IMG/VR virus record: IMGVR_UViG_3300030329_003116
Location: 1-24,104 of that record
Length of the DNA: 24,104 nt
From: a virus
Reading direction: 5' to 3' (one strand)
The notes beneath the pieces were generated by a model, which worked only from the letters and a program-made list of their open reading frames with translations, ran no database searches and was not told the DNA's origin. The position numbers and the translations under genes are program-made. Of the stretch, positions 1,836-12,449 are shown one piece after another. How positions within the stretch are numbered: the first letter of the stretch is position 1; every line of letters starts with the position of its first letter.

Positions 1836-2255
1836 ATGCAAGCAAAACTCGAAACACTATTGAATCGCCTCGAGGGAGTCAGGGGCGGCAAGGGCAGATG
1901 GCAGGCGAAGTGTCCCTCACATGAGGACCGGCTGCCGTCGTTATCCATAACAGAAGCCGATGACAAGATCCTGATTCATTGCTTTGCGGGATGCGCACCG
2001 TCCGAGGTGCTCGACGCTGTCGATCTTGAACTCGGCGACTTGTTCGCCGGGTCAGTCAAGAACGGTCATCACCACCAGGTCAACTGGAAGCAGCGAGTAG
2101 ACCGCGCGAAGCCTGCGGTCACGTTGCTGCTGATCTATGCCGGTCAAATAGACCGCAACTGGGACCACCTGGCCGAGGCACTCGACCTCAACGAACGTGA
2201 TCAAACCATCTTCCTGGGCGCGGTACGCGACATCAGGAGATTGCTTGATGGGTAG
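1836..2255 (+). CDS. Primase-type zinc-binding protein
   Basis: This 139-aa protein has a CHC2-like zinc site: CPSHED at residues 26-31 and HCFAGC at about 49-54, giving Cys-x2-His and Cys-x4-Cys ligands. Such modules form the N-terminus of phage and plasmid DNA primases, where they recognise the priming template. No TOPRIM or other polymerase domain follows, so this is either a stand-alone zinc module or a primase accessory. Its last 8 bases overlap the helicase start, implying coupled translation and a primase-helicase pairing. The ATG follows the terminator T-run directly and has no Shine-Dalgarno. The distance from this ATG to the first Cys is normal for the family, which supports the start. 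Confidence 0.75.
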   Translation: MQAKLETLLNRLEGVRGGKGRWQAKCPSHEDRLPSLSITEADDKILIHCFAGCAPSEVLDAVDLELGDLFAGSVKNGHHHQVNWKQRVDRAKPAVTLLLIYAGQIDRNWDHLAEALDLNERDQTIFLGAVRDIRRLLDG

Positions 2256-3477
2256 GCTCGAGCGGCAGGTCAAGGAACTTGACGATTACTTCGCGAGCCT
2301 GGAGCACCCCGAGGAGCACGAAGGATTCACCGCGCCGTTCCGCGTCACGGACTGGGGCATCGAGCGATACCAGGGCAAGGCCAATGATATTCAGTGGCTG
2401 ATAAAGGATGTGATGCCCCAGGGCACTGCGTGCCTGATGGCCTCAATGGGGGGAGTCGGTAAGTCGTACCTGATCCTGGACACCGCAATCGCGATAGCGA
2501 CTGGACCGTCGATGATAGGCAGATATGCCCTGGGCGGCGAAGTCGTAGACAGCGGAGCAGTCGTGGTGGTCTCGGCCGAGGACAGTCACACCGCGATCCA
2601 TCGCCGGATCGATCAGATCCTCTCCGAGAAGGGCAGGGCAGCGATCCAGGACAACTTCTACATGGTGCCGTTACCGGACGCAGGCGGCAGCATCACCTTC
2701 ATCAAGCAGGTCCACGGTGAATACATGATGACCGAGGAATGGTTGTGGTTCTGCCAAGAGGTGAAGCGAATTCCTAATCTCAAATTCATTGCCCTGGACC
2801 CGCTGCAGGTCTTTGTCCAGGCAGACATCACCAGCGACCCCGCAGCAGCCCAGGTCTGGTGGTCTGCGGTGTCTTCTTTATGTGCCGAAACCGGAGCGTG
2901 CGTCATGGCTGCTCACCACATGCGTAAAGGTAATGAGCACATCGAAACCCTGTTCCAGGCCCGAGAGCAGATCCGAGGCACGACCGGCCTGGTCGACGGT
3001 GCGCGCTGGGTCTACGCCCTCTGGATGGCCTCCCAGGAGGAACGCGAGGCCGCTGCTGCCGCCCTCGGCGATGACATGGGGCCAATGTCCATGATCAAGG
3101 GTGGGGTCTGTAAATCCAATGAGTTTGGATCCGACAAGATCACGGTTTATATCAGGGATGAGTCTGGTCTGTTGATCGACCGCAGCGAGGAGGTCAGTAG
3201 TTGCCTCCTGGAGCGTACGGTCCTGGACCCGGACCAGATCCGGGAGATATTCCAGGAGGTCGTTAGACGCTGGGATGCCCAGGATCCATTCAGCGGTCAC
3301 CACGCAGGCCGGGACCGGTATTTGGGTAAATGGATCTCGGAGAACTTCGACATCGAATACAAGGCCGCGAAGCGGTATGTCGAGGAGTGGATTAAGAAGC
3401 GGAACCTGGTGAAGGAACCACATCCGAAGATCCCAAACTCGTCTGGAATTCGCCGCCGAGAGACCCCGGATGTTTAG
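2248..3477 (+). CDS. RepA-like hexameric replicative helicase (AAA_25 type)
   Basis: A 409-aa RecA-fold ATPase. Walker A is ASMGGVGKS (residues 65-73), SAED (109-112) supplies the catalytic Glu region, and the Walker B strand FIALDPLQ has Asp184. AAHHMRKG (221-228) and RGTTGLVDGARWVYAL (243-258) match the conserved blocks of RSF1010 RepA-type helicases. It should unwind DNA at the phage origin. The start at 2248 is preferred because AGGAGA lies 7 bases upstream and the frame overlaps the primase-like gene by 8 bases. The upstream TTG/ATG extension lacks such a site. The C-terminal 100 residues (basic, ending SGIRRRETPDV) may be a winged-helix or partner-binding region. The iteron cluster begins 3 bases after the stop. 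Confidence 0.85.
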   Translation: MGRLERQVKELDDYFASLEHPEEHEGFTAPFRVTDWGIERYQGKANDIQWLIKDVMPQGTACLMASMGGVGKSYLILDTAIAIATGPSMIGRYALGGEVVDSGAVVVVSAEDSHTAIHRRIDQILSEKGRAAIQDNFYMVPLPDAGGSITFIKQVHGEYMMTEEWLWFCQEVKRIPNLKFIALDPLQVFVQADITSDPAAAQVWWSAVSSLCAETGACVMAAHHMRKGNEHIETLFQAREQIRGTTGLVDGARWVYALWMASQEEREAAAAALGDDMGPMSMIKGGVCKSNEFGSDKITVYIRDESGLLIDRSEEVSSCLLERTVLDPDQIREIFQEVVRRWDAQDPFSGHHAGRDRYLGKWISENFDIEYKAAKRYVEEWIKKRNLVKEPHPKIPNSSGIRRRETPDV

Positions 3478-3480
3478 GAG

Positions 3481-3612
3481 TTACTCCAGCCTCTACTCCA
3501 TGTTTACTCCTTTTTACTCCAGCATTGGAGGACACTGGACTGGAGTAACTATTAAACATAGTTACTCCTAGTCCTGGTCCTGTCCTTTAACGATTACTCC
3601 AGCAGTTACTCC
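3481..3612. repeat. Iteron cluster, candidate replication origin
   Basis: Eight copies of the heptamer TTACTCC or a one-base variant lie in 132 bp. Direct copies are at 3481, 3493 (CTACTCC), 3504, 3514, 3562, 3594 and 3606, and one inverted copy is at 3542-3548. Neighbouring copies are spaced 10-12 bp, about one helical turn. The copies at 3514-3522 and 3540-3548 form a perfect 9-bp inverted repeat with a 17-base loop. The stretch has no gene and lies directly after the helicase gene, as expected for an iteron-type origin. An operator or RNA-level role for the downstream gene is the alternative. Confidence 0.7.
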
Positions 3613-3617
3613 TTCAG

Positions 3618-4064
3618 ATGGCGATGGATAAGAGGGCGAAAAATGAACTCGGCAATCGGTACGCATCACTGGAGGTTGTGGCACCAGCAGAGAGTGAAGG
3701 TGCCGGGGCGATGTGGATCTGTCTTTGCGATTGCGGTGAGTTCGTGAAGATGCGCGCAGCATCGCTGCGCCGGGGATACAACAAGGACTGCGGTTGTGGG
3801 ATCTCGGGGTTTAAGAAACTCCAGGATGCTTTGGTGGATATTGGGACACCACCCTGCGAGAAGGGTTGCGTTTACGTTGATAGGTGTGCTGCGGAGGAAA
3901 TGGCGTGCCAGCAGTTCAGATCCTGGTACGAATGGGGAGGAGATATTGATCCAATGCCAGATTTATACAGACCGACCAGGCAATGCTACGAGGCAATCTT
4001 CCGTGACAAACAGCAGAAACAAGGGCGCAAGCGGGGAGCGCGAGGTCGCAAAGATACTCCGTGA
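3618..4064 (+). CDS. Cys-rich zinc-ribbon phage protein
   Basis: A 148-aa protein with two Cys-rich halves. Residues 12-60 (NRYASL...WICLCDCG...CGC) match the zinc-ribbon-like module often attached to HNH or AP2 domains in phage proteins, with Cys35, 37, 39, 58 and 60 as likely ligands. Residues 80-106 (Cys80, 84, 90, 97) form a second pattern seen in small phage proteins of unknown role. The C-terminus (about 131-147) is very basic. DNA binding is a reasonable inference, but no nuclease motif is present. The start could be the ATG at 3618 or at 3624. Neither has a good Shine-Dalgarno, because the iteron cluster runs almost up to the start. The 3' end overlaps the nuclease gene by 62 bases. 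Confidence 0.6.
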   Translation: MAMDKRAKNELGNRYASLEVVAPAESEGAGAMWICLCDCGEFVKMRAASLRRGYNKDCGCGISGFKKLQDALVDIGTPPCEKGCVYVDRCAAEEMACQQFRSWYEWGGDIDPMPDLYRPTRQCYEAIFRDKQQKQGRKRGARGRKDTP

Positions 4065-4410: not shown

Positions 4411-4819
4411 TCGGTTTCAGCGGGGATCCGGCGGCACTCCTGATCTGACGTTCCAGGAGGTCGCAGATGTGCTCGCGCAGATGTCACGACCGGCTGCTGC
4501 CTGGGCCAGGCTTCGCTATGCAGACGAGCGCAAGTGGTCTTGCCAGGTGCTGCGGTTCTTACGTCATCGGCTTGAGCGTGACGGTGAGGACGTTGAGGAA
4601 TGCTACTGGATGAGGATGACCAGATTGACGCTGATTTGTGCCTTGACAGAAACTCCCTTGACAAATCGTCGCAAATCAAAGGTCGCTGGTGTGCGTTGGT
4701 GGACCAAGAACAACGAACGTGATTTACATAAATGCCTATTTTTATTGGATGGTTTGGACTACGAAGTGCGCAGTCATTTGAAGGCGTGGAATGAACAGAG
4801 ATCTGTAGGTCAGTTTTAA
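4367..4819 (+). CDS. Unrecognised 150-aa protein in antiterminator-Q position
   Basis: I do not recognise a family with confidence. The protein is basic and Trp/Arg-rich (for example AAAWARLRYADERKWSCQVL, about residues 44-63), with a late segment KVAGVRWWTKN and helices up to the C-terminus that could bind nucleic acid. It is the last gene before a short leader, a terminator at 4858-4882 and the packaging/structural genes. This matches the place of Q antiterminators in lambda-like phages. A Q-like role is therefore an inference from position, not from a motif. An AGGG about 11 bases upstream serves as a weak ribosome site. The start overlaps the nuclease gene. Confidence 0.55.
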   Translation: MLTLESFKLLNPKVSRFQRGSGGTPDLTFQEVADVLAQMSRPAAAWARLRYADERKWSCQVLRFLRHRLERDGEDVEECYWMRMTRLTLICALTETPLTNRRKSKVAGVRWWTKNNERDLHKCLFLLDGLDYEVRSHLKAWNEQRSVGQF

Positions 4820-4828
4820 GGTGTGTTG

Positions 4829-4840
4829 TAGAATTATGAT
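4829..4840 (+). promoter_or_regulatory. Possible late-promoter -10 region
   Basis: Two overlapping -10-like hexamers, TAGAAT (4829-4834) and TATGAT (4835-4840), each match TATAAT at five of six positions and lie 10-20 bases after the Q-position gene. No convincing -35 box is seen, which can occur at activator-dependent promoters. Assignment rests mainly on the gene order. Confidence 0.3.
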
Positions 4841-4857
4841 CCAACGGAGTGTATGCA

Positions 4858-4882
4858 AGGTCGCCAATCGGCGGCCTTTTTT
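4858..4882 (+). terminator. Leader terminator ahead of late genes (tR'-like)
   Basis: An 8-bp stem (4858-4865 with 4870-4877, one T-G wobble, loop AATC) ends in six T's (4877-4882). It lies between the Q-position gene and the terminase genes and is flanked by near-identical 12-mers (4838-4849 and 4886-4897, 11 of 12 bases equal). Confidence 0.75.
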
Positions 4883-4932
4883 GTTGATCCAACCGAGCGA
4901 AAACTCACACACATTATTGGTCGCAGTCGAGT

Positions 4933-5394
4933 ATGGCAGCAACAAAAAAGATTCAGAAAGATCCACGCTACAACGCAACGCGCGAAGATGGTCAGTCACG
5001 ATTCAAGAAGGGCAATCCTGGCAGACCAAAGGGCAGCAAAAACAAATTGTCATTCCAGGCTGCAGAAAGGATGGAGGATCTTGGCCTCGATCCGCTGATG
5101 GGTTACGTTGAGTTGTTACAGAAGGCGAGAGCAGATGGAAACCTGGCAGTCGAGGAGCGTGCGCTCTCAAGATTGATGCAATTCCGCTGGGCTGGGCTAC
5201 ATCATTCAATGGTCACGAACGTGGACGAGAAGGATCTTGAAGTCAGCGTGACCAAGTTTGAGATGCCAGATTCGATGGGAAAAATGGACGAAGGGAACGA
5301 CCGATCTTCGAGTTCTGAGAGCAGCGAGCCTGGTCTCGGGGTCAACGTCACCAAGTTTGCCCCACAAGATCTGCCCCACAAGAAAAAAGACTGA
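4933..5394 (+). CDS. Small-terminase-like protein (DUF5681-type N-terminus)
   Basis: A 153-aa protein. SRFKKGNPGRPKGSKNK (residues 22-38) is the signature N-terminus of phage proteins encoded next to terminases, several of which are annotated as small subunits. Residues 45-95 are helical (DPLMGYVELLQKARADGNLA and on). The tail is Ser/Glu-rich and probably disordered, with VSVTKFEMP and VNVTKFAPQ echoing each other at about 98-106 and 136-144. As a small terminase it would recognise the packaging site and load the large subunit. It opens the late region just after the leader terminator. The ribosome site is weak. A non-coding, palindrome-rich stretch follows, which suits a packaging-site binder. 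Confidence 0.6.
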   Translation: MAATKKIQKDPRYNATREDGQSRFKKGNPGRPKGSKNKLSFQAAERMEDLGLDPLMGYVELLQKARADGNLAVEERALSRLMQFRWAGLHHSMVTNVDEKDLEVSVTKFEMPDSMGKMDEGNDRSSSSESSEPGLGVNVTKFAPQDLPHKKKD

Positions 5395-11334: not shown

Positions 11335-12449
11335 ATGGCCTATACAGGCAATAAGTGGTATGCACAGCAGTACCAGGATGCCGTTCTGCAGTTGGCACAG
11401 CAGAAGGGATCGAAACTGCGTAACCTGGTCTTCACGAAGACCGCAAACTCCGAGAAGGTCAATTTCGAGCGACTCGGATCAACGGCGGCCGTTTCCAAAA
11501 CGACCCGCTACACGGATACGCCCAACGTGGAGATGACTCACTCAAGGCGTACCGTCACCCTGGCCGACTACCATTGGGCCACTATGCACGACTGGACAGA
11601 CGATGTCCGTATGCTGGTGGATCCCAAAGGTTCGTACACCAAGTCTGGTGCCTGGGCGATGGGGCGTGCAATCGATGATCTCATCATCGCTGCCGCTACT
11701 GGCAACGCTGTCGACGGTGACGGTTCTACTGTGGCACTGCCTGCTGGGCAGAAGATCACGGAGTCTGGAACCGCTGGCATGACTCTGGCAAAAATTCTTG
11801 AGGCCAAACGCATCTTGGATGCGAACGAGGTCGAGAATGAAGACCGTTGTTTCATCATCGGTTCGCGTCAGTTGGAAGACCTCTTGAACGTGACTGAAGT
11901 CAAGAGTGCCGATTACAACTCTGTAAAGGCACTGGTAGAAGGTCAGATTGACTCCTACCTTGGTTTCAAATTCGTTCGTTCAGAGCGTCTGGCAGTTGCG
12001 TCCAGCAAGCGTTCGTGCATTGCGTTCTCGAAACCTGGTCTCGGTCTTGCTATCGGCAAAGACATGATGACCAAGATCGATGAGCGGCCTGACAAGTCTT
12101 ATGGCTGGCAGGTTTACATGGCATTAAATGATTCTAGTGCCCTCCACTAGTAATAGTGGATGCAAAACTCCGTGAATTCAGAGAAACCCCTAACGTAAAG
12201 ACGAGGGCAACTTTGAGCGAAGCCGCGAAAGCGGAACGTGCAACGACTATCCTTTTTAGGAGTAGGGTCAAGCGACCCGAAGCGCGGAGAACCCCACTGG
12301 GGTTATGACATAGTCTGTTCTGCATTGAAAAATGCAGTAGCCGAAAGGCAGGGTGAGATTAGCGATCTCATTTGAACATTAAAGGGGCAATGCAAGCCAC
12401 GCGCATCGAAGATGAGCGTGTCGTCGAAGTGCAGGCTCACGAAGCCTAA
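11335..12449 (+). CDS. Major capsid protein, gene split by a group I intron (join 11335..12124, 12385..12449)
   Basis: Read without splicing, the frame stops at 12150 after eight intron codons (271 aa). Joining 11335-12124 to 12385-12449 restores the frame and gives 284 aa ending in WAMQATRIEDERVVEVQAHE plus Ala. The exon 2 residues look like the usual C-terminal strand of phage capsid proteins (A/G-x-R-x-E-x-x-x-V-V-E-V). The N-terminal part has blocks typical of podovirus coats: TRYTDTPNVEMTHSRRTVTL, then DDLIIAAATGNA, MTLAKILEAKRILDAN, and LGFKFVRSERL. It builds the icosahedral shell. GAGG 8 bases upstream of the ATG is a good ribosome site. The 3' splice could instead use G12387 (exon 2 from 12388), giving 283 aa with Ser in place of Trp-Ala; the frame holds either way. 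Confidence 0.85.
12125..12384 (+). ncRNA. Self-splicing group I intron (IA2-like, ORF-less) in the capsid gene
   Basis: A 260-nt intron with every core helix visible. P1: exon GGCAU (12120-12124) pairs with GUGCC (12137-12141), giving the U-G pair at the 5' splice site. P2: 12143-12149/12154-12160. P3: CUCCGU 12168-12173 with GCGGAG 12284-12289. P4: UCAGAG 12178-12183 with CUUUGA 12211-12216. P5: 12188-12191/12204-12207. P6/P6a: 12217-12241 with a GAAA loop. P7: GACUA 12245-12249 with UAGUC 12311-12315. P7.1: 12250-12261. P7.2: 12265-12278. P8: 12290-12304. P9, P9.1 and P9.2: 12320-12370. The presence of P7.1/P7.2 and the 3' half closely resemble the T4 td-type introns. There is no room for a homing endonuclease. 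The terminal G is most likely 12384. Confidence 0.92.

Follow-up and report, generated by a model that had tools for sequence, protein, structure and literature searches.

A heptamer array and hairpin directly behind a RepA-like helicase gene of a phage: a probable origin read by the helicase itself

Ring helicases of the DnaB/RepA type usually depend on an initiator protein distinct from themselves, and often on a loader as well. In RSF1010, a RepA helicase works with a separate RepC for the iterons and with RepB′, which primes at ssi hairpins (available text of PMC4234260). The helicases of SaPI and SCCmec elements read, through a C-terminal domain, iterons directly downstream of their own gene (available text of PMC7581432). 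A stem-loop 3′ of the rep gene is needed by pRN1, its letters varying while the fold stays constant; Bordetella phage BIP-1 has a similar stem-loop, and the proteins of the pRN1 type are SF3 helicases (available text of PMC4234260). As far as these accounts go, the layout is already known for SF3-type initiators (SaPI Rep, pRN1). In the open-licence literature we found no report of an iteron-plus-hairpin layout for a helicase of the RSF1010-RepA type (SF4). Here we describe a 24 kb virus fragment (the window, which is the whole stretch of 24,104 bases analysed) in which a repeat array adjoins the gene of such a helicase (Table 1).

Repeat array and hairpin behind the helicase gene

A Sak4-like gene and the gene of a CI-like repressor lie on the minus strand of the window. 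Then come the genes of a Cro/YdaS-type regulator, of a CHC2 protein and of the helicase; the array is followed by a zinc ribbon and a RusA/PDDEXK-like nuclease, and further on there are matches to a terminase, a head-tail adaptor, a capsid, a tail tubular and an internal virion protein, a virion gene set that is consistent with a podovirus. The CHC2 zinc finger (Pfam CHC2 4e-4, below the cut-off) stands alone, has no Toprim match and overlaps the helicase start; the helicases of Rhizobium phage RHph_Y3_1 and of L161 carry a fused Toprim-like part. Neither a RepC initiator nor a RepB′ primase was named among the early-region proteins scanned in this fragment. The major capsid ORF (11335-12150) is overlapped at its 3′ end by a group I intron (12090-12337, plus strand; Rfam RF00028, 83.9 bits). 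Wherever the window matches sequenced phages at the nucleotide level, the match lies within this intron; the matched sequences include coliphage genes with Sak4-like and AAA ATPase annotations, so the intron may move between phages and genes.

The array begins at position 3481, 4 bases after the helicase stop codon, and holds within 132 bp (3481-3612) seven exact copies of TTACTCC, six on the plus and one on the minus strand, together with one CTACTCC. Both the eight heptamers and their place right after the helicase gene, as claimed in the preliminary description, are hence borne out. A TAACTCC on the minus strand (3477-3483; one mismatch) overlaps the stop codon itself. The search for TTACTCC that had been proposed as a check was run over the window and showed local enrichment, with exact copies outside the array at two positions, 5614 and 10170. 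The maximum 7-mer density was 7 non-overlapping exact copies of one 7-mer per 132 bp, compared with a best value of 4 copies, reached by 7 of 300 dinucleotide shuffles of the window, and 2-3 copies in the rest. When one mismatch was allowed, the whole window gave 50 matches against 44 expected; such copies are thus not enriched window-wide and the TTACTCC signal is purely local. The near helical spacing described earlier holds in the left half (steps of 12, 11 and 10 bases) and at the right end (12), but not in the centre, where the inverted copy gives steps of 28 and 20 followed by one of 32 bases. The repeat unit of 7 bp, at steps of 10-12 bases, differs in length from the iterons of RSF1010/IncQ, which are about 20 bp. 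GC skew does not indicate the array site; its minimum in the window, at ~1.5-2.5 kb, tracks gene direction.

Table 1 Features of the helicase-array locus (window coordinates).
Feature	Position	Strand	Basis
Small CHC2 zinc-finger gene, primase-like, possible priming partner	1836..2255	+	phrog_6088 2e-14
RepA-like (AAA_25, RSF1010 RepA-type) helicase gene, candidate initiator	2248..3477	+	Pfam, phmmer
Type-2 C-terminal domain of the helicase, winged-helix-like, proposed reader of the iterons	3181..3474	+	low-confidence models, motif association
Iteron TTACTCC	3481..3487	+	
Iteron CTACTCC, one mismatch	3493..3499	+	
Iteron TTACTCC	3504..3510	+	
Iteron TTACTCC	3514..3520	+	
Bulged hairpin	3537..3574	+	stem 3542-3552/3558-3568, equivalents in relatives
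Inverted iteron TTACTCC, hairpin left arm	3542..3548	-	
Iteron TTACTCC, hairpin right arm	3562..3568	+	
Iteron TTACTCC	3594..3600	+	
Iteron TTACTCC	3606..3612	+	
Zinc-ribbon gene (HNH-endonuclease N-terminus-like), alternative binder, this phage group only	3618..4064	+	phrog_374 5e-13

A hairpin is built on the inverted heptamer pair. An exact 9-bp inverted pair had been reported before; the pair exists, but its exact arms are longer, at 11 bp, and enclose a 5-base loop (TAAAC), and the hairpin had been overlooked as a conserved element. Beyond a one-base bulge at 3569 the stem is extended outwards by 5 pairs (3537-3541/3570-3574). Folded as single-stranded DNA, the 140-base gap had a z of -3.4, and 1 of 200 shuffles folded equally well.

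Conserved place and geometry with varying letters

Helicases 72-83% identical to that of the window were present in seven viral contigs. Where the sequence behind the helicase gene was available, the array there reads TTACTCC in L008 and L011, CTACTTC in L009 and L010, and TTACCCC in L005 and L006, the array of L005 being the weakest, with no excess in the 7-mer test. A zinc-ribbon search reached L016 and L017, whose helicase type is 42-44% identical and whose GAGACCATGCA array consists of three direct units, an inverted pair (11-bp stem, 5-base loop) and more copies. Searching with the L017-type helicase gave nine loci, and the 3′ DNA of eight was inspected, all eight having the GAGACCATGCA array. 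Counted from the helicase stop, the units lie at +4, 16, 27 and 37, inverted at 65, and at +85, +117 and 129 in the window; at +8, 20, 32 and 41, inverted at 69, and at +90, +123 and 135 in L008 (TTACTCC); at +13, 24 and 34, inverted at 62, and at +80 and +115 in L009 (CTACTTC); and at -1, 10 and 21, inverted at 71, and at +91 and +127 in L017 (GAGACCATG). Hence, the letters vary while place and geometry stay. The exact hairpin core had no match in viral contigs. A looser palindrome pattern gave 98 stretches, and among the loci scanned a TTACTCC array was present only in L008 and in L091, which is the same contig as L011.

The hairpin follows the same rule, an equivalent stem being rebuilt with other letters in the TTACTCC, CTACTTC and TTACCCC relatives. 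In the GAGACCATG group it comprises 28 pairs with 97.9% of cells paired, three cells breaking the pairing, and 3 pairs are altered on both sides, among few sequences (7 rows, 5 of them distinct). Sliding the stem by 1-3 columns left 34-54% paired and no two-sided changes; the covariation was reached by 5 of 500 alignments in shuffle control (a), again with few sequences. In 15 of 29 loci no shuffle among 40 was as good as the best 70-base hairpin after the helicase, and in 6 more a single shuffle was; the hairpin did less well in L166, L172, L180, L042, L043, L031, L179 and L188.

A first scan of genome contigs, made with the close-relative alignment, returned zero relatives. By tblastn, relatives were found in Wolbachia phage WO, Rhizobium phages Y3_1 and Y3_56, plasmids and bacterial genome loci, and a second contig scan with a broader alignment gave 31 loci, of which 30 were used after L189 (31 residues matched) was dropped; L040 (63-residue match) was left out. 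The array units of these distant relatives (Rhizobium phage, plasmids, bacterial genomes) include CGTTCCCA, TTCCCGG, ATCCCCG, CTTCCGCA and others. RHph_Y3_1 has 8 copies of CGTTCCCA in its 3′ gap and a single further copy in the rest of its 40 kb; its GC skew minimum at 6.2 kb, versus the array at 13 kb, is not informative. We set the 7-mer copies in the first 300 bases behind the helicase stop against those in every other 300-base segment of each locus (step 50). The 3′ segment was strictly top in 33 of 44 loci (8/14 and 25/30 in the two sets), which are not independent, L044 and L184 being one element and several rows near-copies. The loci below this mark were L005, L042, L041, L029, L031 and L043 in the 14-locus set and L179, L180, L181, L186 and L188 in the 30-locus set; L042 and L181 do stand out at 8-mers. 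In L179 and L188 the C-terminus of the helicase looks frameshifted or is missing, and there is no array. The Wolbachia phage WO loci L031 and L043 are a real exception, having a type-1 C-terminus (see below) yet no array after the gene, and L029, L041 and L180 likewise have none after the helicase.

Two further elements were seen at some loci. In L030 (5220-5300), L159 and L183 (5185-5255), another repeated motif, similar to TAAGTCATTGAAAA, stands between the iterons and may mark where the DNA opens. Short hairpins of their own, with the general form ACCCYTCT..AGARGGGG, follow the iterons in type-1 loci (L030 at ~5325-5345, L042, L159, L160 and L178) and are reminiscent of single-strand initiation sites.

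The helicase and the candidate readers of the array

Rather than the SF3/D5/DUF927 class, the helicase matches Pfam AAA_25 (5e-32) and RSF1010 RepA (1g8y; phmmer 3e-15). Based on comparison with relatives, ATG 2248 is favoured as its start over GTG 2197. The 279-aa RSF1010 RepA chain matches only residues 73-314 of the 426-residue reading from GTG 2197, and the ~110 residues past residue 314 that RepA leaves unmatched form an extra C-terminal domain. Mean pLDDT was low, 61 for the model of the full helicase and 60 for that of the C-terminal domain. The first structural match of the full model was RSF1010 RepA, and both low-confidence models end in the order helix-helix-helix-strand-strand, which is that of a winged helix. 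The C-terminal model gave weak matches only (IHF, Z 5.5; winged-helix domains of AhrC/ArgR, Z 4.5-5.1), and the libraries of solved structures held no clear match to the domain. These predictions suggest that the domain is likely a winged helix. Beyond the GLLxD motif, the helicases carry one of two types of C-terminal domain: type 1, of about 107 residues, with the pattern KTG...KWLDVP, and type 2, with the pattern PFS...RYLG...W, which is present in the window, the L017 group and L181-L183. No relation between the two types was detectable (hhalign probability 2%).

The preliminary description had offered either the helicase C-terminus or the zinc-ribbon protein as the binder of the iterons. 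We compared the ORFs within 3.5 kb of the helicase stop across 41 loci, a comparison that short, fast-changing proteins could escape. The helicase was the sole family in all 41 neighbourhoods; families in 38 and 33 loci were minus-strand ORFs over the helicase gene, the next family reached 18/41, and the zinc ribbon was present in 7/41. There is no zinc-ribbon gene after the array of RHph_Y3_1. These counts and this absence make the helicase C-terminus the better candidate. As a general binder the zinc ribbon was rejected on the same grounds, and it may yet have such a role within this phage group. In L017, of the GAGACCATG phages, two tandem zinc-ribbon genes follow the array (4613-5002 and 4893-5381), and in the window group there is one.

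The unit letters were then set against the helicase types. Type-1 C-termini occur mostly with TTCCC-like units, and also with GTTTCCA (L178) and ATCCCCG (L184), and type-2 C-termini with TTACTCC, CTACTTC, GAGACCATG, CTTCCGCA and TCTCCGC. For 24 loci under 90% ATPase identity, with L031, L043, L179 and L188 excluded beforehand, motif similarity correlated with C-terminal identity given ATPase identity (partial r 0.45; 1/2000 and 0/2000 permutations). The reverse relation, with ATPase identity given C-terminal identity, was -0.19, and decoy regions at +300, +600 and -700 gave partial r values of 0.07, 0.03 and 0.00. Within type 1 alone the relation was not significant (0.11, 497/2000), and in the ATPase tree all type-2 helicases lie on one side of one branch (99/96). 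Hence, the link between motif and C-terminus represents one evolutionary contrast, which is supportive, not decisive.

It seems rather improbable that the array is an origin at which another protein, be it the zinc ribbon, the Cro/YdaS-type regulator or the CHC2 protein, binds the iterons and hands the DNA to the helicase. RSF1010 splits the roles likewise, its RepC serving RepA (available text of PMC4234260), the phage has an HTH regulator as well as a zinc-ribbon gene directly after the array, and the TTACTCC and GAGACCATG groups both retain the zinc ribbon. However, none of these families goes with the array across the wider set: apart from the minus-strand shadow ORFs, no non-helicase family exceeds 18 of the 41 neighbourhoods in the comparison above, which small, rapidly evolving proteins may have escaped. 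The regulator genes lack a TTACTCC cluster.

A role as RNA is very unlikely. In this case the hairpin and repeats would be a 3′ UTR or intergenic element that controls the stability, translation or antitermination of the early-operon mRNA. The stretch would be transcribed if the early genes form one operon, the 140-base gap folds well as RNA (z -3.5, with none of 200 shuffles equally good), and the stem covariation suits RNA as well as DNA. However, the array has no Rfam family and no terminator-like or promoter-like site, and an RNA hairpin leaves unexplained the six extra copies of the arm heptamer outside the hairpin, which change together with the arms in each lineage, as well as the helical-like steps and the mixed-orientation arrays in type-1 loci. 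Hardly credible is another kind of DNA site, for packaging (pac/cos), partition or recombination: such sites can be repeat arrays with inverted repeats, but this array adjoins the helicase and not the terminase, its place is kept amid the other gene sets of RHph_Y3_1, plasmid pSU2 and integrated elements (with an integrase or methylase near the array in the few flanks annotated), and the scan of the early proteins yielded no named partition gene.

Proposed mechanism and comparison with known systems

An iteron-type origin, as originally suggested for this array, is the best-supported reading because of the local enrichment, the position conserved over deep divergence, the letters that change together within each array, and the precedents of SaPI, SCCmec Cch2 and pRN1. 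Taking the mechanism as a whole, we consider it probable that the array serves as an origin to which the helicase binds with its own C-terminal domain. Encoded immediately upstream, the helicase would bind the heptamers through this winged-helix-like domain, and its subunits would align on the four left and two right iterons that flank the central inverted pair. At this pair the duplex would open or be extruded as a hairpin, helicase rings would form on the strands thus exposed, and synthesis on the opened strand would be started by the small CHC2 zinc-finger protein, by the host DnaG primase or by both. That the site acts as an origin, that the C-terminal domain binds it, that the helicase loads itself and how primers are made are the steps that we infer; the array, the hairpin, their conserved place and geometry, the paired stem changes and the extra C-terminal domain are read directly from the sequence.

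It is about an even call whether RepA-type (SF4) helicases, as a widespread class in phages, plasmids and integrated elements of proteobacteria, act as their own initiators, each with a C-terminal reader of one of the two types and a 3′ iteron-plus-hairpin origin. If true, such self-initiating RecA-fold (SF4) helicases would represent a case of convergence with the SF3 initiator helicases and would require neither a separate initiator nor a loader. If the helicase and its 3′ array start replication alone, the module would represent a new way of loading SF4 rings and a simple minimal replicon, and origins of uncultivated phages could be looked for directly behind the helicase gene. Because the letters vary freely within a fixed layout, switches of specificity can be put to the test.

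The array lies 3′ of the helicase gene, as do the origins of SaPI, pRN1 and P4. In SaPI Rep and SCCmec Cch2 the iterons are likewise directly downstream of the helicase gene, and reading by the C-terminal domain is what we propose here; unlike those proteins, which carry DUF927 or Primase_Cterm/D5, the present helicase matches RSF1010 RepA and AAA_25 (available text of PMC7581432). Also unlike the SaPI and SCCmec origins, as far as they are described there, the inverted iteron pair here forms a conserved hairpin. With pRN1 and Bordetella BIP-1/BPP-1 the locus shares a stem-loop just 3′ of the replication gene, whose letters vary while the fold stays. Those systems differ in having an AEP primase with an SF3 helicase and a stem-loop of about 100 nt without iterons, and their protein has a C-terminal winged helix, which here is only predicted, at low pLDDT (available text of PMC4234260). 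In phage P4 alpha, a helicase and a winged-helix domain for binding the repeats of the origin sit in a single protein, as proposed here, but P4 alpha also contains a Toprim primase (same source, as available). The oriV of RSF1010 (IncQ) has a homologous RepA helicase and both iterons and hairpins (ssiA/ssiB), whereas a separate RepC reads its iterons and a separate RepB′ primes (PMC4234260, available text). The module resembles an RSF1010 RepA that carries a reader domain of its own, in the arrangement seen in SaPI.
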